From: Synechococcus sp. CBW1108
GTDB lineage: Bacteria > Cyanobacteriota > Cyanobacteriia > PCC-6307 > Cyanobiaceae
Direction of reading: 5' to 3'
NCBI RefSeq assembly: GCF_015840335.1
Contig: NZ_CP060395.1
Location: 682,001-746,000 of the forward strand
Length of the DNA stretch: 64,000 bases
In this document: piece after piece, positions 1-9,614 of the stretch
Layout: every line of letters begins with the position of its first letter
Position numbering within the stretch: position 1 is the stretch's first letter
The notes under the pieces: generated by a model
The model's database searches: none
What the model saw: only the letters and a program-made list of their open reading frames with translations
Told to the model about the DNA's origin: nothing
Position numbers and translations under genes: made by a program

Positions 1-597
1 CAGCTCAAACAGCACGCTGCTCTCCTGTTCATCCCGCCGCACATAGCCAATGTCATCGATCAGCAGCAGCGGGTAGCGATCCAGCCGCTCCAGCGCTGCC
101 GGCAGGTTGTATTCGGCGCGGGCCTTCTGCAGCTCCTGCACCAGGCTCGTGGCGGGATAGAAGCGGCAGGCCTGATCCAGGCCGATCTGCGCCAGGGCGA
201 TGCCGATGGCCAGATGGGTCTTGCCGACGCCACTGGGGCCGAACAGCAGCACGTTCTCGCCCCGCTGCAGCCACTCGCTCTGGCGGCTCAAGGCCTCCAG
301 TTCCTGCCATCGGTGCGCCTCGATCCGGCCGCCATGGTCGTAGTCCGCCAGCGCTTTGCTCCAGGGCAGCTGGGCCGCGCGCAGCAGCCGGTGCTGGCGG
401 GCCTGCTGGCGTTGCTCCATTTCCTGCTCGCACAGGGCATAGAGAAACTGACTGGGGCTCCAGCCCTCGCCCTCAGCATGCGAGGCGATGCTCTGCCAGT
501 GGCAGCGGATCCATGCCAACCGCAGCTGTCGCAGCAGGATCGGCAGGGCGGCTTCCGCCGCCTGGGGCCGCGGGATGGAGGGCAAGGAGGTCGTCAT
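1..597 (-). CDS. istB: IS21-family ATP-binding helper protein IstB (partial, runs off left edge)
   Basis: AAA+ ATPase partner of the IS21 transposase IstA; it assists target selection and transposition. The first 199 residues are present. A Walker A motif (GPSGVGKTH) lies near residues 120-128 and a Walker B motif (LLLIDD) near 177-182. Family members are about 250 aa, so roughly the last 50 residues lie outside the window. The ATG at 597 was chosen because the protein then begins like other IstB proteins. It overlaps the end of istA by 125 nt in another frame, which suggests translational coupling. The visible part has no stop or frameshift. Confidence 0.9.
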   Translation of the reverse strand, partial: MTTSLPSIPRPQAAEAALPILLRQLRLAWIRCHWQSIASHAEGEGWSPSQFLYALCEQEMEQRQQARQHRLLRAAQLPWSKALADYDHGGRIEAHRWQELEALSRQSEWLQRGENVLLFGPSGVGKTHLAIGIALAQIGLDQACRFYPATSLVQELQKARAEYNLPAALERLDRYPLLLIDDIGYVRRDEQESSVLFEL

Positions 598-2110
598 AGC
601 TCTGCAGGCTGTGTTGGGGAATGCGTTGCGGTGGGTGGGGGCGATGGGGCGGCAGCCGGAAGCGTTGCTGCAGCGCCGCCAGCGACAGCCCTTGCCGTTG
701 ATGGGCCTTCTCGAGCCAAACCAGCACTGGCTCGTAGCCCGCCAGGCGGCAGCCCACATACAGCGCCTCGACCATCAATCGGGCGGCGGCGTCACGGTCA
801 CCGCCATTGCGCAGCTGCTGCCACAGCTGCCACCAGCGCTCATCGGGGAACAGCTCCCGCTGGTAACTGCAGTGCAGCAATGCCCGGGGTTTGCGCCTGA
901 GCGCATCGATCAGGTGCTCCAGATCGATGCTCCACGCCCGCCCATGACGCTCGACACCGCCGTGGCGCCGCTCCAGTTCGCAGGCGATCTGCCGGCCCAG
1001 AAGCAGCTGCAGCCGGTCGTGGAAGATCCGCACCGTCAGCCGCTGGTCGATCAGCCGCGGCGGCACCGAATACACGACTCTGCGTACCTCGATCGTGCTG
1101 GTGCGCCGCACCGTGAGCTGTTCAATGTCGTAGTCGGCAAAACGAAACCGCGGTAGTGGCCGCAGCGCCGCCTGCTCCTGCTCCAGCCGGATCAGGCGCG
1201 GCCTGTTGTACTGGTCAATCACCGCGGCCAGAAAAGCCTGGTATTCAGCCAGCGTCTCGAAATCACTGCTGCCGCGCAGCAGCAACGCCTGCTCGATCCG
1301 CCGCTTGAGATGGCCATGGGGACTCTCCACACGGCCGTTCTCATGCGCCACCCCCAGGTTGTTGCGGCTGTAGGCCAGGCTGTAGTGGCTGCAGAGGGCG
1401 TGATAACGGCGGGTGATGTCGGAGCTAAAACTGCCGTTGCGGTTACGGCACGCTGCTGATAACCGGTCGGTGCGCAGTTCACCTGGCACCCCGCCGCAGG
1501 CAGCCAGAGCGTTCTGCAGACCCTCGGAGAGGGCGGCAAAACTCTCGCCGCCCTGGACCACCTGCGCGTAGCTCCAGCCGCTCCAGGCCAGGCGGTAGTG
1601 GAACAGCAGATGGGGGAACACCTGGCCGGCGATCGTCACCTCCACCCCCTTGAGCTGGGTGAAGTCACAGAAGGCAATTTCGCCAGGCTCATAGCTCAAA
1701 GGGAAGATCACCTCCGGCGCCGGGCCGTGCAGTGCCTTCCACTCCCGCACCCGACGCTGCAGGGTGCGCTGTAGCGGAATCCAGTCCACATCAGGTTTCT
1801 GCTGCTGCAGATGCTCCAGGAGCGTGATCGGCGTCAGCGCGGGTGAACGCTGCAGCAACGGCACCAGCTCCTCCTCCCATACCCCCACCAGCGGATCGGG
1901 GCGGGTGCGGCCACGGGGCTGGTTCGCCCGCGGCTGCAGCTGATTGCATTCAATCCGGCGAGCACTGCGCACTGAGATGCCCGCCGCCGCGGCAGCAGCC
2001 TCCTGGCTGCTGCCGCCTCGTCGTTTCGTCATGAACAGGTTGCGTTGGTGGCTTGTCAGTGGTGCCGGCATCCCCTGGTCCCTGCGCATCGGCACCAGGG
2101 TCTCCAGCAC
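473..2110 (-). CDS. istA: IS21-family transposase IstA
   Basis: DDE transposase of an IS21-family element, 545 aa. An N-terminal helix-turn-helix reads as QEAAAAAAGISVRSARRIE. The integrase core has plausible catalytic acidic residues in IAFCDFTQ, in the ELRTDRLSAA segment and in the HENGRVESPHGH segment. The frame is open throughout. Starts at 2110 and at 2071 (MPAPLTSHQ) are both possible; the second resembles family N-termini more closely. The downstream istB start lies inside its last 125 nt. With the left part of istB visible, this looks like a potentially active element. Confidence 0.92.
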   Translation of the reverse strand: MLETLVPMRRDQGMPAPLTSHQRNLFMTKRRGGSSQEAAAAAAGISVRSARRIECNQLQPRANQPRGRTRPDPLVGVWEEELVPLLQRSPALTPITLLEHLQQQKPDVDWIPLQRTLQRRVREWKALHGPAPEVIFPLSYEPGEIAFCDFTQLKGVEVTIAGQVFPHLLFHYRLAWSGWSYAQVVQGGESFAALSEGLQNALAACGGVPGELRTDRLSAACRNRNGSFSSDITRRYHALCSHYSLAYSRNNLGVAHENGRVESPHGHLKRRIEQALLLRGSSDFETLAEYQAFLAAVIDQYNRPRLIRLEQEQAALRPLPRFRFADYDIEQLTVRRTSTIEVRRVVYSVPPRLIDQRLTVRIFHDRLQLLLGRQIACELERRHGGVERHGRAWSIDLEHLIDALRRKPRALLHCSYQRELFPDERWWQLWQQLRNGGDRDAAARLMVEALYVGCRLAGYEPVLVWLEKAHQRQGLSLAALQQRFRLPPHRPHPPQRIPQHSLQSYDDLLALHPAAPGGGSRPADPAATAAVGMDPLPLAEHRLAC

Positions 2111-2167
2111 TCACCCCACCGGCCAACGAGCTTGTCGCCGACCGGCCAACTTCATTGTCGGCGGACA
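2104..2167. repeat. Terminal end of the IS21-family element with two internal repeats
   Basis: Read on the minus strand the end starts TGTCCGCCGACAATGAAG at 2167, with the TG typical of IS21 ends. Two related units of about 23 bp follow in tandem, each carrying a CGGCGACAA-like block and then GTTGGCCGG. IS21 ends usually carry multiple transposase-binding repeats, which these match. Adjacent DNA at 2168 is IS1595 transposase coding sequence. The other end and the target duplication lie outside the window. Confidence 0.7.
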
Positions 2168-2344
2168 CTTGAGCCTGCGGCCATAGACCAGCCCATGCTC
2201 ATGGCCATTGCAGCGGGGACAGCGGAACCCACCGGGCCAGCGCGCCTTCTCCAAAGCAGCCTCACATTGCTCCTCGGTGCCGTAGAGCCGCTGGAAGTCA
2301 GGCAGTGAAAGGCCTTTCTGGAACTGGATGACGTTGCGCGCCAT
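2168..2344 (-). pseudogene. IS1595-family transposase, 5' fragment cut by the IS21 element
   Basis: About 59 codons remain, starting at the ATG at 2344. The segment contains FQKGLSLPDFQRLYGTEEQC and the zinc-ribbon start FRCPRCNG, the N-terminal signature of IS1595/ISXO2 transposases. The homology stops at 2168 where the IS21 end begins; reading on into the IS21 end gives a meaningless tail that stops at 2111. The catalytic domain is absent from the window and may continue beyond the left edge, on the far side of the IS21 element. Confidence 0.8.
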
Positions 2345-2443
2345 GACTGAACTGGTATGTGCGTACCAGTCTACGGCCCAGGCTCGCGGTGCGCGGAGCG
2401 AGCTGGGTAATCAAGTCCGCCCTTAACCTGCTGCTGATACGGA

Positions 2444-2770
2444 TCAGAGCGGTTTGGTCGTCTGCTGGTTATCTGCGACCCAGCGCGAGAAGGCCTCGCG
2501 ATCAAGCTCGCCGCTGGCCACTGCCAAAACAACGCCCTCTGCAGCATCGATTGTGGCGATCAACTCGACGCCGTTCAGTACGAGGGTCGTTTCCATGGCG
2601 GCATGGCCGATCCGCTTGTTGCCATCCACGAAGGGCTGGTTCTGGATCAGGGAGACCCCCAGCGCTGCTGCTTTGGCATTCAGTCCTGGGTAAAGATCAA
2701 CACCGCCAAAGCTCTGGTGGGGCTGGGCGATGGAGGACTCCAGCAGGCCCAGGTCCCGCAGACCGGGCAT
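2444..2770 (-). pseudogene. Doc/Fic-type toxin, N-terminally truncated and lacking the catalytic His
   Basis: About 108 codons resemble death-on-curing (Doc-like Fic) toxins: [15 protein letters not shown], then [19 protein letters not shown], then the Fic core [17 protein letters not shown]. In this family the core normally starts NHPFxDGNKR; here the catalytic His codon is CAG (Gln). About the first 20-25 residues of a normal Doc, including a proper start, are missing between the antitoxin stop at 2784 and this homology. Both changes point to loss of AMP/phosphotransferase activity. Position 2770 is the first available ATG, not necessarily a used start. Confidence 0.75.
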
Positions 2771-2783
2771 GCCTCCGCCAGGC

Positions 2784-2978
2784 TCAGGCCAGCCGGCGAT
2801 AGAGCTCCTGGTTCTTGTTGACCACCCGATCCGCAGCGGCCTGGAAATCAACCGATTGCCGAGCAACCAGATCCCGCACTGCAGCAGAAGCGAGATCGGC
2901 CTCACTGACGTGAAGCCGACGTGCTGTTTCGCTCAAGGCCTGGGCCTGTTGGTCACTGAGCTCGATCGCGATTCCCAC
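2784..2978 (-). CDS. Antitoxin of a Doc-type toxin-antitoxin pair
   Basis: A 64-residue protein whose N-terminal half looks like a short DNA-binding antitoxin domain ([20 protein letters not shown]). It ends [11 protein letters not shown], a tail I associate with antitoxins paired with Doc-like toxins. It lies directly upstream of the toxin remnant on the same strand, the normal operon order. It appears intact although its toxin is decayed. The family assignment comes from recalled sequence patterns and gene order; the exact antitoxin class is uncertain. Confidence 0.7.
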
Positions 2979-3411
2979 CGGCGCTCTCCAACTAAAGGAC
3001 TGATGACATCCAGGTTGGCACCTCCGTTCGCGGATGGCTTGCAGCCTGTTCAGCGCAGCGGCCCTGGCAGGCGGCGGATCGGCCGCATCTGTGGCCTGAG
3101 CGGAGGCGGGATCTGCAGTTGCTGGTCGACCCAGTGGGCAGCAAGGGCTGCCAGCAGGCTGTTGCGATCGCAGTGGATGCGGAGCATGGCGTTGGCTGAA
3201 AGTGCTGCCCGCCAGCCTGATCGCGCCGGCCCGCTCCGCCAGCGCAGAAGGCGACAGGGCCGCGCAACCAATGGCACAACCGCGGCCAGCAATGGCATCA
3301 GCGCAAGCTCCGGGAATGTATGTCAGTCCGCGCTGCTTCCTAGCGGCTCCAGATCAGCGCCATGCCGACCCTCACCAGGAGTAGAACAGCCGTACTGCTG
3401 CCGAAGCTTGG
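2979..3411. other. Intergenic stretch without a recognisable gene
   Basis: About 430 bp between the antitoxin gene and the UmuD-like fragment. Short open frames exist on both strands; one on the minus strand at 3050-3298 encodes about 82 aa. None matches a family I know or has a convincing start context. It is probably decayed accessory DNA. Confidence 0.4.
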
Positions 3412-3597
3412 ATGTTGGCCGACCTGCCCATTGGCGAACCTGTCCCCTACCGCCAGGACTCATTCGCTGAGGACCTAGATCTCCATGCTGCTCTGGTTCC
3501 CAACCCGGTCTGCACCTTTTACATGCGGGTCAGCGGCAATCGCCTGCGCCAGCACGGGATCAACGACGGCGACCTGCTGCGGCCGCTGCTGCGCCAG
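3412..3597 (+). pseudogene. UmuD/LexA-like (S24 peptidase) fragment
   Basis: About 62 codons read PIGEPVPYRQDSFAEDLDLH, then NPVCTFYMRVSG, then HGINDGDLL, the order found in UmuD-type SOS mutagenesis proteins. The catalytic serine region, normally SGxSM after the MRV segment, reads SGNRLR, so the nucleophile is gone. The homology stops at a run of 13 G at 3597-3609. No UmuC partner is seen. This is a dead fragment, probably from a cassette once carried on a mobile element. Confidence 0.6.
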
Positions 3598-3609
3598 GGG
3601 GGGGGGGGG
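3597..3609 (+). repeat. Homopolymer run of 13 G
   Basis: Thirteen consecutive G residues lie at the point where the UmuD-like homology stops. Such runs are prone to slippage in cells and to base-calling errors, so the exact length is uncertain. Confidence 0.8.
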
Positions 3610-3774
3610 ATCACACGAAAGAGAGGGTTCCCCAGGCTGGCCAATAAGTGGAGGATCCTTTGGCCCTGGAGAAAATTCTCCTTGCCTCTCCAGGTACGCC
3701 CTCCAGAAATCAGATCGTCTTCCTGTCTTACCGCTCCACTGCTCTCCATCCCGATCAAGGATCTCCGGCCACCC

Positions 3775-4452
3775 CTACCTGAGGCGCTGGCTGATCTCGA
3801 CTTTGCCTGTGGCTACGCCAGGCTCGAAGTAGCACTTGGCGCGATATCCGATCTCTGTGGCGAAGGCGTTCTTGGCATCGAAGTCAGAGGTAACGACCAC
3901 GTTGCCTGTGCTCGGGGCCTTGTAGACGCTTGTACCTAGGAAGCTATGAACCTTGACGCTGGTGGGGATCGAGGCGCTCTGGCGGATCAGTTCTTCGCAG
4001 GCGCTGCGGGCCTCAGCCTCGCCCCAAGCCTTCTGGGTCTCAGAAGCAACAGGGCCGGCACTAGCAAGTTCTGTCTCGGAGAAACGGAATCGGGTGCTGT
4101 TGGCGCAGTCCACGAAGTAGTTCAGGTCGCTCAGGCTGCTGCGAACCTGGGAAAGCTCGACGACTTCGACGCGATCACAGGTCGGTGACGCTGCGGCTTT
4201 CTCGGCGGCAGCGCGACGCAGGCGCTCCACGTCGTCAATGCGGCTGCCGAAGGCGGCGAACAGCTTGGGGTACTGGTCTGCGGTGTAGGGGCTCAGGACG
4301 TAGTCGGGAATATCAGCCTTGTGACTGCTGGTCGCCAGCGACGACGGGGCCGAAGCGCCGGTGTCGCTCGAGTTGGTCGTGGAGGGATCACCGCAGGCGG
4401 TCAGGACCGAAACCAGCGCCAGGCCAGCTATGGAAAGAGGGAGACGTTTCAT
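3775..4452 (-). CDS. Putative lipoprotein of unknown function
   Basis: A 225-residue protein with a lipoprotein signal peptide ending in the lipobox LTAC (residues about 17-20), followed by a Ser/Thr-rich linker. This predicts attachment to a membrane facing the periplasm. The rest has a charged helix near residues 70-90 (DDVERLRRAAAEKAAA) and a C-terminal part rich in beta-strand residues; three further Cys could form disulfides. I do not recognise a family. It stands alone in the accessory block. The ATG at 4452 gives a clean signal peptide. Confidence 0.75.
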   Translation of the reverse strand: MKRLPLSIAGLALVSVLTACGDPSTTNSSDTGASAPSSLATSSHKADIPDYVLSPYTADQYPKLFAAFGSRIDDVERLRRAAAEKAAASPTCDRVEVVELSQVRSSLSDLNYFVDCANSTRFRFSETELASAGPVASETQKAWGEAEARSACEELIRQSASIPTSVKVHSFLGTSVYKAPSTGNVVVTSDFDAKNAFATEIGYRAKCYFEPGVATGKVEISQRLR

Positions 4453-4567
4453 GGGGGGTGGTGCGGTTAAGAGAAGCCTCGCGGCGGGGGGGTCAGTGCC
4501 TACTCGGCAGCTCAGGGAGTGTTCACCACCATGCAGCGGCGGACATCTGCCCGAAAGGCCTTAAAGC

Positions 4568-5065
4568 TCACCGCTCTACCCTCCAGCTAATTACGCGGCG
4601 ACAATTAGGTAGGCGGGCGCCTTCGTAGTTGACACCGGGCAAGCTGGTCTCCTGGCCGTGTTTCCCAGCCGGCCGGAAGTTGAACCCATACCTGGAGAAG
4701 GTGGTCCCGCGGGGTTTGGCCCCCACCAGAAGCTGGACCTGGGAGGTGGGAAGCTCCCAGCTGTTTCGGGCCGCTTTCGTCAGGAAGGAGAGCAGACCAT
4801 CCAGGTGGGAGACGGCCGCGGCCACCAGCTCCTCCGGAGCCTCCTGGTCCTCCTCGGGCTCCTCCAGCAACGGGGGAAGAGGCTGGCTGGGAGCAGGGAC
4901 CAGAGCCATCTCCGGAGATGTCTGGAGACGTCCAGGAAGACCTCTGGCTTCTCTCCAGCCAGGGCCGCTAAGTTTTTTTATTAGGGGGGGGGGCATACAC
5001 GGGTGGAGTACCAAGGCTTCATTGGACCTATCATGAATAGTGTCACATATCCAGAGATCCTTCAC
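4568..5065 (-). CDS. Doubtful ORF, possibly a decayed gene
   Basis: An open frame of 165 codons between the lipoprotein gene and the low-GC gene. The C-terminal half (SHLDGLLSFLTKAARNSWE, then VGAKPRGTTFSRYGFNFRPA) reads like a real protein. The N-terminal half is Pro/Glu-rich and crosses a run of 10 G at 4984-4993, so the true start may lie elsewhere. Its last codons fall in the 23-bp direct repeat at 4596-4618. No family is recognised. It may be a mobile-element remnant. Confidence 0.25.
   Translation of the reverse strand: MKDLWICDTIHDRSNEALVLHPCMPPPLIKKLSGPGWREARGLPGRLQTSPEMALVPAPSQPLPPLLEEPEEDQEAPEELVAAAVSHLDGLLSFLTKAARNSWELPTSQVQLLVGAKPRGTTFSRYGFNFRPAGKHGQETSLPGVNYEGARLPNCRRVISWRVER
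4596..4618 (+). repeat. 23-bp direct repeat, copy 1
   Basis: Identical over 23 bp to positions 6777-6799 and in the same orientation; the unit contains CGACAATTAGGTAGGCGGGC. The second copy lies just beyond the 5' end of an IS66 transposase remnant, so both copies may be ends of related IS66-type elements. Confidence 0.75.
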
Positions 5066-5086
5066 CCCTAGAGAGCGAACTTTGAT

Positions 5087-6013
5087 TTACAATGCGCTGC
5101 TCCGAAGTTCGTCATATTCAGCCTTGGTAGCAACGCTTGAATTAAACGCATCTCTTATGTGTTTTCTTCTCGAGTAAACTCTAAGACTGTCTATATTGAT
5201 TGCCCCTAAATCTTTAAGCATGCTTGGAACCGACAAATACTCGTGCGCCTTTCTCATGGCATCTTGCGCTTCTCTGGCATAGGCGCATAGCGATTCGTGT
5301 TCAGCTTGCAATACATTGATCATCTTTAGCAATTGCTTACTATTTCCCGAAAGCAGCTCATTTGATAATGATGCATAATATGTAGCAGTTATAGGCTCAA
5401 GCGTGGCCTCCAGCTCTGCTGCTGCTTTGCACGCCCATTGAGCTTCGGGAAGATTAAGAAACATCAGACTACATACCTCCGCGTCAAGTGAGCCTTGTCC
5501 AAAAAAAGAGACAGAGCCTTGTCGACACAACCTATCCAGGCTTGCATTGAATAGCGGAATAGAAGGCCACCTTCTAATTGGGGGGAAACTTAAGAAGCTT
5601 AAGTCGATTAAATGCCATCGCCCTGGTTCAATTCTAAATGAAAAGCGACCGCCGAGGACGCCTCCAGTTGCAGTTGTGAAATTCACTAATTCATTTGATT
5701 GACCAAGATCAGGCTCGATGACTGAGCAAAAGAGTGTCAAGAAGTCTGTGCCTACATCTGTCCCTTGTGGAAATTCACTTATGCCAATTTCATCGATCCG
5801 AATGCACCTTACTTGGTCAGTTTGCTGAATCCCATGCAATCCTACAAATGTCTGCCGGAGACTGGGCAAAATGGATTTGGCAGCTCGTACATTCTTGGCA
5901 TGTATAAGCGTGCCGGCTACTGGCAAACCAATCAAGATTACTGCGATGACAAAGACGAGTAAAGGCATAAAGCTGAAAGCCATCTGCTGTCTCTTATTGT
6001 ATGACGATGTCAA
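5087..6013 (-). CDS. Low-GC membrane-anchored protein of unknown function
   Basis: A 308-residue protein with one hydrophobic segment near residues 13-33 (FSFMPLLVFVIAVILIGLPV); the remaining 270 residues are probably outside the cytoplasm. The middle is rich in aromatic and beta residues and the C-terminal part looks helical (QAEHESLCAYAREAQDAM). No family is recognised. The gene is visibly AT-richer than everything around it, with many TTA, AAT and ATA codons, which suggests recent acquisition. Start choices are the ATG at 6013 or one ten codons later. No partner gene is adjacent. Confidence 0.65.
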   Translation of the reverse strand: MTSSYNKRQQMAFSFMPLLVFVIAVILIGLPVAGTLIHAKNVRAAKSILPSLRQTFVGLHGIQQTDQVRCIRIDEIGISEFPQGTDVGTDFLTLFCSVIEPDLGQSNELVNFTTATGGVLGGRFSFRIEPGRWHLIDLSFLSFPPIRRWPSIPLFNASLDRLCRQGSVSFFGQGSLDAEVCSLMFLNLPEAQWACKAAAELEATLEPITATYYASLSNELLSGNSKQLLKMINVLQAEHESLCAYAREAQDAMRKAHEYLSVPSMLKDLGAINIDSLRVYSRRKHIRDAFNSSVATKAEYDELRSSAL

Positions 6014-6125
6014 GGCTCAGCTTATGGCCACCCCGATAAATTCCTGTAAGCATTCAGGGGTCGGGTCGCTACGCCGCGCGAATACGCGCCTCATAGCTAT
6101 CCCTGAGTGGGCAAAGATGCATTGC

Positions 6126-6705
6126 GGCACTTTCTTCTGCTCTCAGGGATCTGGCAGCAGTGACGGCATCACCCCGCCGCGGTGATGGGCGATCCAGGCC
6201 TGCTCGAGGAACTCCCAGACGTCGCGGCCCTGTTGCCGCAGGGTGGCGGTAACCGTCAGTAGGCGGCTGCGGCGTTGTTGGTGGGCTCGATTCCCCCGTC
6301 TCCAGGAAGGTCCAGAGGCCGCCTGTAACCTTCTGGAGCCACTGGCATTTCCGCACTGTGCTGGCCCAAGACGTCAGCTCGCCGTGCTGGTAGCCCCAGC
6401 ACCACTACCTGCTGCAGCGTGGTCTCAAATGCACGGCGAATCGGCAGGCAGCTTTGCTGCAAGGAGGACCAGTCAATCTTTTCCTTCTTGTAGCGGTGTC
6501 AGTGGCCAAACAGCTGCTGCTCTAGGTCCAGCAGCTTTGCTCCGAATTGAGCGCCGGCGCCCGGGCGTTCGGCGATGGCCGTTAGATCGCGAACCAGGTG
6601 CGCCAAGCACAGCTGGCGTTGCTGTTGGGCAGGTGGTTGTAAGCCGAGAAGCGATAGCTCAGACAATCCCCCCCCCAAAAAAAAAGGCAGTACCGAGCAG
6701 CTCAA
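6126..6705 (-). pseudogene. IS66-family transposase remnant (multiple frameshifts)
   Basis: Three pieces of an IS66-type transposase lie in order on the minus strand but in different frames. LCLAHLVRDLTAIAERPGA and LLDLEQQLFGH come from the central domain near 6500-6620. EGYRRPLDLPGDGGIEPTNN comes from the catalytic C-terminal region near 6260-6320. RQQGRDVWEFLEQAW is the C-terminal tail near 6180-6250. A run of nine C and nine A at 6668-6685 interrupts the upstream part. The N-terminal half is missing. It cannot make an active transposase. Confidence 0.8.
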
Positions 6706-6776
6706 TCGCAGCAGCGGCCTTTAAACTGCCTAGCCCCTGCAGAAACGCCTTCGCCAGCGGTGTGACAGTCCCTGCA

Positions 6777-6799
6777 CGGCGACAATTAGGTAGGCGGGC
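6777..6799 (+). repeat. 23-bp direct repeat, copy 2
   Basis: A perfect 23-bp match to 4596-4618, lying between the 3' end of the serine recombinase gene and the 5' side of the IS66 remnant. Read on the minus strand it precedes the IS66 remnant, as an IS left end would. The two copies bracket the low-GC gene and the IS66 wreck. Confidence 0.75.
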
Positions 6800-6823
6800 A
6801 CCCAGGCCGTTGTCGGGCCGCGG

Positions 6824-8659
6824 TCACGGTGATGACGTGGGACTGGAGACCTGGGCTGCATTTTTTACCGCCTTGCCTTGGAGCATCCCCACAGAATGCG
6901 CAACAGGCTTGGCTTGCCGTCGCGGCCGGCCAACCTTTGCGGCCATTTGCTTCTCAGCCTTGATCTCCCCCAACCGCACTTCCCTATCGACCTCGCTGAA
7001 GCCAAGGACGGCCATGTCAGCGAGGGTCTCGTCAGAAACCACCTTTCCCGCCCCCGCCCGGTAGACGTGAGCCTCACCCCAACGGTCGCCTTCCTGCCAG
7101 CTGAGGCAGCTGAGGTGTCGGCCCTGGAGTCTCATCCGCACACCGAGATTCCTTAACCAGCCATTGAATCGCTGCCGCTCCGAAGGATCTTGACGACCAT
7201 CCGCCAGGAAGGCCTTCACCTTGGTCTTGATCTGCTCGCCCATCTGTTTGCCGCTGGGCTTAGACAGCAACGCCTGCAGCGCTGCATCCACCTTCAGTAG
7301 CTGGCGCTTGGTCTGATCTGCGGCTGCCGTGGCTTTCCGCACGGTGCTAGCCAACATGTCCGCCGTGTCCTTACCCAGCTGGCCATCGAGAAGGAGCCGT
7401 GAAGCGTTCCCCTCCGCGTTAGCGGCCTGCTGCTGCTGCTTGGCCAACGTGGTCCGCAGCGTAAGGCGCTGCCCCTCAAGCTCCCGCTGCTGGCGCGTAT
7501 CGGCCTTAACGCTGAAGAACTTGTCCCACCGTTGCGCCATGAAGGACAGCAGCAACGCTTCCTCGTCGTAGTTGAGCCAACCGACCTGCTCGGCGCAACG
7601 CAGATCGAGATGTCCCTGGCAAAGAAGCTTCTCGTACCTGCCGCCATGGCTGGCGCGATGCCCCAATGGCAGGCCGCAGGGGCATCTCAGCACCCCGGCA
7701 AACAGGTTGCGCACCCGCATCGAGTTGCGATCTCGCCCTGGTGCCGTATCTCTCGCCGTGGCCAGAGCACGGCAGCGGTCGAATTGACCGAGGTTGACGA
7801 TCACCGGGAAGTAACCCTGCAGCGTCTCGGTGTTGCCGTCTGGATCAGTGATCTCACGCTCCCCCAACACCCGGCGATCCTTCAGGAGCAGGCCAGTGGT
7901 GGCGCCCGTCACTGTGCTGCCGGCGGTGTTGGTGAAACCCTCAGCCGTGAGCTGTCGGCCAATCGCGGCGTGACCCAGCCCCTGCTCGCTGAGCTGAAAA
8001 CACCGCTGCACCATCGCCGTGCTGGCGTTGGACTTGAAGTCGCCAGCAGCGCCATCCCAGTCGAGCCAGAACGGCCTGCAACGTGGCGATGGGTCCTTCT
8101 GGCCTGCCTTGATGGCCTCATAGCGCTTGGCCCAGTTGGCCTTGCTGCGCATCCCGTTGCGCTTGCTGAACTCGTGCGCCGCCTGGATCTTCACCACCAG
8201 CACCAGAAGCTTGCTGGCATCGGCGGCAATGGTGACCCGGCTGTATTCCTGCTGGTCCTCCAGGGTGATGACCCGCACGCCGCTGCCGACCAGCCCGCTC
8301 AAGATCGTCTCAATGGCATCCAACGGTTCCTGCCGACTGAGCCGGTCGATGGCCTCGACCAGCAGCACGGGACTGGGACCGAGCTGCCCGAACTGCGCCA
8401 GCTCCAGGAAGTGCCCCAAAGCACCCTTGAGGTGGCGGCCGCTGTATGCACTCCTGCCGCGATCAGAAAATGCCAGCTGCTGATCGAGCTGGTGGCCGTT
8501 GGCCGCACACCAGAGCGCCGCTGCATCAGCCTGCCGATCAAGGCCATGGCCGACGACCTGCTGGCCACTGCTGACCCGCTGGTAACTGAAAGCGACGGGC
8601 GCCGCCAGACTCTCAACCGTCACAAACGGAGCCGTCCGGCGCTGCCGTGTCGATGGCAT
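6824..8659 (-). CDS. Large serine recombinase / integrase
   Basis: A 611-residue site-specific recombinase. The N-terminal resolvase domain has VAFSYQRVSSGQQ with the candidate nucleophile Ser, and DRLSRQ near residue 130. It is followed by a recombinase domain, a Cys-rich zinc ribbon (FAGVLRCPCGLPLG then LLCQGHLDLRC) and a long coiled-coil-like tail (QQRELEGQRL). This architecture is that of large serine integrases and cyanobacterial XisF-type excisases. The ATG at 8659 (MPSTRQRR) was chosen because the upstream codons lack homology and run into the neighbouring gene fragment. The gene starts about 50 bp from a truncated response-regulator gene. No frameshift is seen, so it may be active. 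Confidence 0.88.
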   Translation of the reverse strand: MPSTRQRRTAPFVTVESLAAPVAFSYQRVSSGQQVVGHGLDRQADAAALWCAANGHQLDQQLAFSDRGRSAYSGRHLKGALGHFLELAQFGQLGPSPVLLVEAIDRLSRQEPLDAIETILSGLVGSGVRVITLEDQQEYSRVTIAADASKLLVLVVKIQAAHEFSKRNGMRSKANWAKRYEAIKAGQKDPSPRCRPFWLDWDGAAGDFKSNASTAMVQRCFQLSEQGLGHAAIGRQLTAEGFTNTAGSTVTGATTGLLLKDRRVLGEREITDPDGNTETLQGYFPVIVNLGQFDRCRALATARDTAPGRDRNSMRVRNLFAGVLRCPCGLPLGHRASHGGRYEKLLCQGHLDLRCAEQVGWLNYDEEALLLSFMAQRWDKFFSVKADTRQQRELEGQRLTLRTTLAKQQQQAANAEGNASRLLLDGQLGKDTADMLASTVRKATAAADQTKRQLLKVDAALQALLSKPSGKQMGEQIKTKVKAFLADGRQDPSERQRFNGWLRNLGVRMRLQGRHLSCLSWQEGDRWGEAHVYRAGAGKVVSDETLADMAVLGFSEVDREVRLGEIKAEKQMAAKVGRPRRQAKPVAHSVGMLQGKAVKNAAQVSSPTSSP

Positions 8660-8690
8660 TAGCACCCCAGAACTCCCTCCATCATTACAG

Positions 8691-8720
8691 TCCGTGGCGC
8701 AACAACAATGGAACACGGTC
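8691..8720. other. Probable attachment-site junction of the integrative element
   Basis: The homology to a LuxR-type helix-turn-helix begins abruptly around 8709 with NTVKTH. The codons just upstream do not give the expected preceding helix. The integrase gene starts 50 bp to the left. This is the arrangement expected where a serine integrase has inserted its element into a coding sequence. The exact crossover dinucleotide cannot be seen without the other end. Confidence 0.45.
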
Positions 8721-8825
8721 AAAACCCACCTGCGCAATCTGAGCGCCAAGCTCCGGGCCCGGGATCGCACCCACGCGGCCGTGCTTGGCCTGCGTCTGGG
8801 GCTGATCGACTGGCCGAACGACTAA
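8697..8825 (+). pseudogene. 3' fragment of a NarL/LuxR-type response-regulator gene
   Basis: About 40 codons read NTVKTHLRNLSAKLRARDR, then THAAVLGLRLGLIDWPND and a TAA stop. This is the recognition helix and tail of a GerE/LuxR DNA-binding domain, as at the C-terminus of NarL/FixJ response regulators. The receiver domain and the first half of the helix-turn-helix are absent from the window. It lies directly before the ComEA-like gene. The most likely cause is insertion of the element carrying the serine recombinase. Confidence 0.7.
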
Positions 8826-8870
8826 GACCCCAGCTAAGTTCGGTGCAATTCGAATCGGCAGCGTTCCGCC

Positions 8871-9614
8871 ATGGCCCAGAGGCACTGGTTGGACCCCCTG
8901 GCGCGTCAGCTGCTACGGGCAACCGGTCAAATTCCAGCGGCAGCGCGGCAGCCCAACCCTCCCGAAGGGAGCCCTACCAAACCAACCCAGACCAGGCCAA
9001 CCCAGGGCGAACCCACCCAGCCTGAGGCCCTGGCCTTAGAGGAGGTAGAGCGTGAGCTGCTCGCCCTCAAGTTGCAGCAGAATCCAGGCCTGCGGCTTAA
9101 CGATGCCAATGCGGTGCAGCGGGCCTCTGCCCTGGGTTGGCGCCTGGATGTGAACCGCGCCACCGCCTCCGACTGGCTGCGCTTGCCAGGGATGGCGGCC
9201 TCCCAGGTGGATCTGTTGCTGCGCCTCCAGGCAAGTGGAATCCAGCTCAGCTGCAGCGAAGACCTGCAGCGGGTGCTGGAGCTGCCCGAATCCCTGGTGC
9301 AAACCTGGCTACCGCTGCTGGAGTTCCGTTGGTACAGCGAGCCCGCCCCGCCAGCAATGCCCGCCAAGCGGATCGATCTCAATCGGGCAGCGGCGGGGGA
9401 ACTCCAATCGCTGGGCCTTGACAGCCAACGGCTGGGCCGGCTGCTGCTCGAACGCAACCGCGCTCCCTTCCTCGACCTGGCCGATCTGCAACAGCGGCTC
9501 CAGCTTCCGGCCGCCCTGGTGGAGAGCTGGATTGGCCGGGTGCAGTTCAGTCCAGGCCCCGCCGGACCTATCTTGCCGCCCGCCGCTAAAGGAGCGGCCA
9601 GTAAGGGGCCCTAG
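8871..9614 (+). CDS. ComEA-like helix-hairpin-helix protein
   Basis: A 247-residue protein with at least two helix-hairpin-helix segments: DVNRATASDWLRLPGMAASQ near residues 91-110 and IDLNRAAAGELQSLGLDSQR near 167-186. Such repeats occur in ComEA and other nonspecific DNA-binding proteins. The N-terminal region is Pro/Thr/Gln-rich and probably disordered. No signal peptide or membrane anchor is evident, unlike classical ComEA, so a cytoplasmic DNA-binding role is possible. The next gene begins 4 nt after its stop and encodes a GIY-YIG protein, so the two are probably co-transcribed. Confidence 0.75.
   Translation: MAQRHWLDPLARQLLRATGQIPAAARQPNPPEGSPTKPTQTRPTQGEPTQPEALALEEVERELLALKLQQNPGLRLNDANAVQRASALGWRLDVNRATASDWLRLPGMAASQVDLLLRLQASGIQLSCSEDLQRVLELPESLVQTWLPLLEFRWYSEPAPPAMPAKRIDLNRAAAGELQSLGLDSQRLGRLLLERNRAPFLDLADLQQRLQLPAALVESWIGRVQFSPGPAGPILPPAAKGAASKGP

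Follow-up and report, generated by a model that had tools for sequence, protein, structure and literature searches.

A putative 32.2-kb phage-derived integrative element within a LuxR-type regulator gene of Synechococcus sp. CBW1108

The integrase gene and the two parts of the regulator

The genome of Synechococcus sp. CBW1108 consists of one contig of 3,226,220 bp, from which we have analysed a stretch of 64,000 nucleotides (bases 682001 to 746000, referred to here as the window; positions are those of the window unless stated otherwise). Near its left end a gene for a large serine integrase lies beside the end of a LuxR-type regulator gene. The genes found there are the following:

1..2110 (-), transposase pair of IS21 type, named by eye: an istA-like gene and an istB-like one that extends beyond the left edge
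2111..2344 (-), ORF of 77 aa, interpreted as the N-terminal part of a transposase of IS1595 type
2444..2905 (-), Doc/Fic toxin-like ORF, PF02661 over the cut-off and TIGR01550 below it
2784..2978 (-), small ORF without confident family, upstream of the Doc-like ORF and overlapping it
3775..6013 (-), orphan ORFs of 225, 165 and 308 aa, only the first with a PHROG match (function unknown)
6824..8659 (-), large serine integrase gene, 611 aa, with 53 bp between its ATG and the attR core
8713..8825 (+), 3' part of the LuxR-type regulator, ending in a stop at 8823-8825

The integrase ORF is intact, as an earlier note on this DNA had described, and its ATG is separated by 53 bases (about 50 in that note) from the first base of the regulator remnant at 8713. 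The resolvase domain (PF00239) scored 48.3 bits, over the cut-off of 23.3, and the recombinase domain (PF07508) 17.2 bits, below the cut-off of 21.1, while PHROG integrase family 95 (phrog_95) matched residues 25-527 with 122 bits. In an alignment of six integrases the SYxRVS and R-S-R columns, which we take to be the catalytic Ser/Arg motif of the resolvase domain, were invariant, and so were C326 and C347, looked at as part of a zinc ribbon. The AlphaFold model, of moderate confidence (pLDDT 69, pTM 0.39), has predicted helices at 388-424 and 430-465 (pLDDT 69), looked at as a coiled coil. A profile of six integrase relatives matched the SPbeta, phiC31, A118 and TP901-1 integrases of solved structure, and the best full-length fold matches of the model were the integrases of SPbeta, Bxb1 and phiC31. 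The top one was 9dxh, a structure of the SPbeta integrase with attP/attB, at Z 16.4 and an rmsd of 25.1 over 454 residues; for Bxb1 9iu2 the values were Z 14.9 and 26.7 over 414 residues. These large rmsd values may come from flexible domains or from a poor domain placement in the model. A scan for sigma-70-like promoters gave none in 8500-9000, with only 0.1 expected there by chance.

The regulator remnant matches positions 32-55 of the 57 of the GerE domain with 22.3 bits, slightly below the cut-off of 23.5. It had been called the 3' third of a LuxR-type DNA-binding domain; it is indeed the end of a GerE domain and covers its last two fifths. The missing 5' half, proposed to lie to the left, was located by a GerE search of the whole genome. 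Among the seven matches, one at genome positions 658398-658502 (+) covers GerE positions 2-36 with 42 bits and ends at position 36, and its break is 32 kb from the remnant, on the same strand and in the matching frame. This 5' part belongs to an ORF of 219 aa with a receiver-like domain below the Pfam cut-off followed by the start of the GerE domain. The left junction reads ...GCCACTGACACGGTGAAGTCC and the right junction ...CAATGGAACACGGTCAAAACC, with the core ACACGGT shared by both and an element of 32,224 bp between the two breaks. When the flanks are joined in silico at the core, a regulator ORF of 249 aa is obtained.

Synechococcus sp. CS-1331 (G015) carries the uninterrupted regulator gene. 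Its DNA aligns with the left flank over 2498 bp (95% identity) and with the right flank over 788 bp (94%), both flanks are collinear with one unbroken stretch and the two alignments overlap by 10 bp, indicating that the regulator halves are not paired by chance. Together with the 249-aa ORF without frameshift, this collinearity indicates that the insertion neither lost nor added anything beyond the core. Most simply, the insertion would be younger than the split between the source strain and CS-1331. A comparison of 247 codons between the rejoined regulator and the CS-1331 gene, start codon included, gave 14 synonymous and 8 non-synonymous base differences and no frameshift. The rejoined ORF is four residues shorter at its end owing to a stop in the 3' remnant, and codon 227 in the remnant encodes R, mostly Q in the relatives read.

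We searched 60 related genomes for the regulator. Orthologs with 55-97% identity are present in 13 of the 15 congeners, the other two having only a 38% relative in one case and none in the other, and all 13 are in frame across the crossover up to their stop. Likewise, the 18 cyanobacterial loci in named genomes (48-100% identity, a count that leaves out two distant actinobacterial loci) all align past the crossover, although the more distant among them may be paralogs. Synechococcus and Cyanobium strains, together with cyanobacterial MAGs, make up most of these genomes. None of the relatives read carries the truncated 3' piece, so the observation that the earlier note had named as evidence against an interruption (the same piece in relatives that have no integrase) was not made. 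Only 7 bp are common to both breaks and IS elements are present, features that would also fit two unrelated fragments, or fragments parted by transposition, deletion or misassembly. Such an origin is nevertheless extremely improbable, since the flanks are collinear with the empty site to within the core, with no target duplication or base loss, the predicted attP is a dyad centred in the core and a second case is found in the congener G005 (both described below).

Attachment sites and the predicted integration

The attachment sites could be delimited at both ends of the element, of which only the right-hand part lies in the window:

1..8719 (no strand), right-hand end of the element (8.7 kb), with the remaining 23.5 kb left of the window at genome 658496-682000
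Genome 658489-658495, left of the window, attL core ACACGGT, the same 7 bp as in attR
Inside the element beside attL, TGCGCCA, inverted partner of the P arm and perfect inversion of TGGCGCA
8695..8701 (no strand), TGGCGCA, outer arm of the P half-site, dyad positions 18-24
8713..8719 (no strand), attR core ACACGGT, central dinucleotide GT at 8718-8719
8731..8737 (no strand), TGCGCAA, attB-side arm, dyad positions 13-19, inside the GerE codons of the regulator

A short shared core had been expected near 8700-8715 and is found at 8713-8719, but a shared stretch of 7 bp is by itself weak evidence of site-specific integration. The attP of the circular form, obtained by joining the two inner ends of the element, has dyad symmetry around the GT of the core, with 14 of 27 positions symmetric (3-9 for other core centres) and perfect 7-bp arms, TGGCGCA and TGCGCCA, at positions 18-24. 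A run of seven at GT was obtained in 0.055% of 20,000 shuffles and a score of 14 at any core centre in 0.9% of them. In the A118/LI integrase the zinc-ribbon domain contacts attP positions 16-24, and the motif for this domain is 5 bp nearer to the centre in attB than in attP (PMC3783163, in excerpt). The right arm of attB, TGCGCAA, has six of the seven bases of the attP arm exactly 5 bp nearer to the centre; none of the other arm/offset placements, 34 in all, scored above 4, and a match of this quality occurs at 0.33% of positions in this DNA. All seven arm bases are present in the regulator ortholog of two of the 13 congeners. No such motif was found in the left arm of attB, which is a poor dyad overall (7 of 27 at GT, with another centre nearby scoring 10). 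The site thus has the shared core, the attP arms at 18-24 and, on the right of attB, the arm at 13-19, the spacing of large serine integrases. A search of viral_contigs with the attP dyad pattern gave three contigs carrying one identical unrelated sequence, taken as chance.

The explanation that we favour, with a probability of about 0.92, is that the window begins within the right end of a 32.2-kb phage-derived integrative element, whose own serine integrase would have recombined attP with attB within the LuxR-type regulator. The attP of the circular element would pair with attB in the GerE-coding part of the gene, and strand exchange would take place at the GT dinucleotide within ACACGGT, an integration that we infer from the sequence with high confidence. 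The regulator now breaks off after its TVK codons, so that its ORF of 219 aa lacks the last part of the DNA-binding domain. As the flanks have neither gained nor lost bases outside the core, the reverse reaction would yield exactly the 249-aa ORF, at least in silico. For excision the integrase would need a directionality factor as a partner, which is how skin(Cd) and SPbeta work (PMC5025042, PMC4191935, both in excerpt). The earlier suggestion that the block 1-8.7 kb is part of a larger mobile element interrupting the regulator, and that excision could restore it, is supported by the sequence checks that the note had named: the 5' half to the left in matching strand and frame, the short common core and the uninterrupted gene in relatives. 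We consider it most likely that the regulator was lost through an ordinary site-specific integration, which would in principle be reversible. We also count in its favour an independent second case, the thiD gene of G005, split in the same way.

Relatives of the integrase and known gene-splitting elements

Among 388 genomes of the class, 41 match the integrase profile, with matches below 1e-50 only in the host's own family; outside it the best was 2.4e-11 and partial. With a single-sequence query no close relatives were confirmed in viral_contigs and genome_contigs, and an alignment-based query gave one relative in a viral contig (29%). In sequenced phages 18 records match the integrase, none covering 80% of it.

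Ten loci with relatives of the integrase were read, and a broken gene lies beside it at four of them: thiD in G005, a SLOG-type gene in G061 and mutY in both G098 and G434. None was seen at G112, G137, G085, G113 and two loci in G385; at G085 and G137, where the start of the integrase is broken or cannot be placed with certainty, the flank examined may be misplaced. No LuxR-type motif was found by simple pattern in the stretches around seven other integrases. Both gene halves with a restored frame were found only in G005, where about 65 bp separate the start of the related integrase (37% over 353 residues) from the break in thiD:

G005, C1:1089596-1089727 (L045:10597-10728), first part of thiD, on the same strand as the remainder
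G005, C1:1131084-1131731, remainder of thiD, the single stop in the match being on the element side of the junction

The CTG cores of this element are 41,395 bp apart (whole locus G005:C1:1089596-1131731). Joining the flanks gives an ORF of 274 aa, an uninterrupted thiD is present in G012 and only two pieces of the interrupted gene were found in the G005 genome. Its inferred attP is symmetric at 16 of 27 positions at one core centre (4-7 at the others), a value reached by 0.25% of shuffles. The cargo includes a type I restriction system with methylase, specificity and restriction subunits, and the genes in common with the regulator element are the integrase and one chance-level match. As a separate observation, the ThiD protein of G012 had no match at E 1e-3 in the CBW1108 genome or in G061, which indicates that not every member of the group has this ThiD.

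One integrase, the same in both genomes, is located within mutY in G098 and G434 (L047:9144-9296 and L187:126-1000 in G098; L188:9757 and 19315 in G434). At the far end, 9.5 kb away, an identical element-side 5' end runs into the mutY remainder in both genomes, so mutY stays open. No Pfam family matched the mutY piece of 51 aa in G098, which was named from its likeness to the gene at the other end. In G061 the SLOG-type fragment (L046:8772-9005) lacks both ends, and no other part of this gene was found in the one-contig genome. Judging from the thiD case and the mutY insertions, integrases of this clade seem to target coding genes frequently, and a clade-wide habit of gene interruption in unicellular picocyanobacteria is possible.

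Several known systems are comparable. The skin(Cd) element in sigK of Clostridioides difficile, with the large serine recombinase CD1231 and the directionality factor CD1234, also splits a regulator gene whose frame is restored by excision (here in silico), but its excision, directionality factor and developmental control are proven (PMC5025042, in excerpt), whereas those of the present element would be predictions. The SPbeta prophage in spsM of Bacillus subtilis (SprA/SprB) is likewise a phage-derived element with a serine recombinase that splits a coding gene, and its integrase is our top fold match; it is, however, an active phage excised during sporulation, (PMC4191935, in excerpt), while the element described here is a decayed mosaic. 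Elements of the fdxN/XisF type interrupt mostly genes of heterocyst formers, with three cases in unicellular non-heterocystous strains, one of them Synechococcus sp. PCC 7502 (PMC4874684, in excerpt). They share with ours a serine recombinase gene inside the element and an interrupted coding gene, and differ in that the target here is a LuxR-type regulator and that strong integrase relatives occur in the host's own family. What characterizes fdxN and skin-type elements, an interrupted ORF restored in frame, is seen in silico (249 aa, intact in CS-1331). The parallel with XisF drawn in the earlier note holds only for the way in which the element would work; strong relatives of the integrase were seen only in the host's own family among the 388 genomes of the class. 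XisH and XisI had no match in the CBW1108 genome, and none in the control genomes either, so that this is no evidence of their absence.

Large serine recombinases and their att sites have been mined systematically, most clusters being predicted to target one to three gene clusters (PMC10083194, in excerpt), and Integrase-On-Demand (PMC12884075, in excerpt), which tests one integrase in Synechococcus elongatus, and this survey use the same comparative method as we do. In the main texts, LuxR, cyanobacteria and response regulator are not mentioned in PMC10083194, nor LuxR, thiD and Cyanobium in PMC12884075; the present integrase may be in the supplementary tables of either. No prior report of the element, its target or the integrase clade appeared among the matches listed from open-access literature, taken in excerpt and without supplements, nor did we find any open-access literature joining Cyanobium with a serine recombinase. 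According to the excerpts, interruption elements with serine recombinases were already known in heterocystous and in three unicellular cyanobacteria, and gene-splitting integrases have been mined in bulk. This element, with its LuxR-type target, would be a further case of the known gene-splitting elements, and the work adds a serine integrase with attP and attB predicted to the base in unicellular phototrophs.

Contents of the element and its likely fate

Most of the element is left of the window, where the earlier note had placed any functional payload, and phage genes and a putative bacteriocin exporter were indeed found there:

L001:7307-8838, partial NAD-dependent ligase and small HTH gene
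L001:10524-14840, scaffold, LysM, 174-aa and portal block, following an IS transposase
L002:28-6266, NHLP-type exporter and 64-aa peptide, right of the portal block
L101:9620-10244, L102:1817-2822 and 8057-9582 (CBW1108 genome) and L103:9742-11264 (G005), whole or partial copies of the NAD-ligase/HTH genes outside the element

Beside attL a protein of 1400 aa joins a D5-type primase/helicase to a family A DNA polymerase. Its identity to the primase and the polymerase of Streptomyces phages, which are annotated separately there, is about one third, and no relatives were confirmed in viral_contigs. Next inward are the NAD-ligase fragment and the small HTH gene, which recur elsewhere in the CBW1108 genome (only the HTH gene in L101, one full unit and one ligase piece in L102), with a close copy of the HTH gene also in G118. 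No directionality factor was recognised for the integrase. The small HTH protein (L001:8204-8566) was considered for this role and set aside, given that no such integrase turned up around three of its close copies (stretches of 19 kb, two of them in the CBW1108 genome and one in G005); a distant homologue adjoins the integrases of G112 and G137, leaving it as a weak lead.

After an IS transposase (PF13586, PF05598) comes the cyanosiphovirus-like block with scaffold and portal. The portal has relatives in 29 of 197 related genomes (CBW1108 counted) with up to 94% identity. It is 88-95% identical to ten IMG/VR contigs, an eleventh being at 26%, and the nearest portals among sequenced phages are those of PSS2, S-CBS2 and S-CRES (28-29%). 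These matches point to a widespread temperate cyanophage family. The block is distributed across 13 genera, and the regulator orthologs of the same genus, CS-1331 apart, are only 55-81% identical. No integrase match was found in the stretches of 11-18 kb fetched from the ten portal-bearing IMG/VR contigs. Of the parts of a complete temperate phage, portal, scaffold and LysM are present, and the large terminase of a related prophage (L072) had no match inside the element.

The NHLP-type exporter (HlyD and peptidase-ABC over the cut-off, a second ABC below) is accompanied by a 64-aa peptide with a double-glycine-like leader (TIGR03949 below the cut-off) and is a predicted bacteriocin exporter. 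The IS21-type pair has a 98% identical copy elsewhere in the genome (L101). Judging by eye, the 77-aa ORF and a PF12762 piece beyond the IS21 copy (L002:8727-9449), its presumed remainder, would be one IS1595-type transposase parted by that copy. The element is thus a decayed phage-derived mosaic eroded by IS elements. It is probably not an autonomous phage, given three or more IS elements inside it and the absence of the terminase found in the prophages from which its portal comes.

What has happened since integration can be weighed on these grounds. There is an even chance that the insertion is now permanent, with the regulator lost and the integrase a relic yet to decay. The absent terminase, the three or more IS elements, the lack of a recognised directionality factor and the integrase being the only gene clearly shared with the thiD element all agree with this, while the integrase and both att sites display no visible damage. 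It appears unlikely that the element instead acts as a regulated switch, which is compatible with the proposed integration and would mean excision in some cells or conditions, turning the regulator on as in skin, SPbeta and the fdxN element. The intact integrase, the clean junctions, the exact restored frame, the few base differences (14 and 8, no frameshift) and two elements with integrases of one clade splitting genes in one genus would fit such a role. Against it stand the IS insertions, the directionality factor not being recognised, the premature stop removing the last four residues, the R at codon 227 and the interruption being found in one genome only. The host is moreover unicellular, and we know of no cell differentiation in these picocyanobacteria. 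The remaining probability falls to an ordinary integration from which the element might occasionally excise.

We regard as speculative, and rather improbable, the wider idea that this family-specific clade builds excisable interruption elements in conserved genes (the LuxR-type regulator, thiD), giving reversible and heritable on/off states of regulation and vitamin metabolism in unicellular picocyanobacteria without cell types, tied to bacteriocin-export or restriction cargo. If any such element still excises, phase-like switching of regulators or metabolism would occur in picocyanobacteria; if none does, their genomes record repeated gene loss through site-specific integration.

Apart from this locus, the genome has a further pair of GerE matches at 1966447-1966608 and 1992152-1992295, one in an open frame of 92 aa and one ending at position 49 of 57, which are possibly other truncated regulators.
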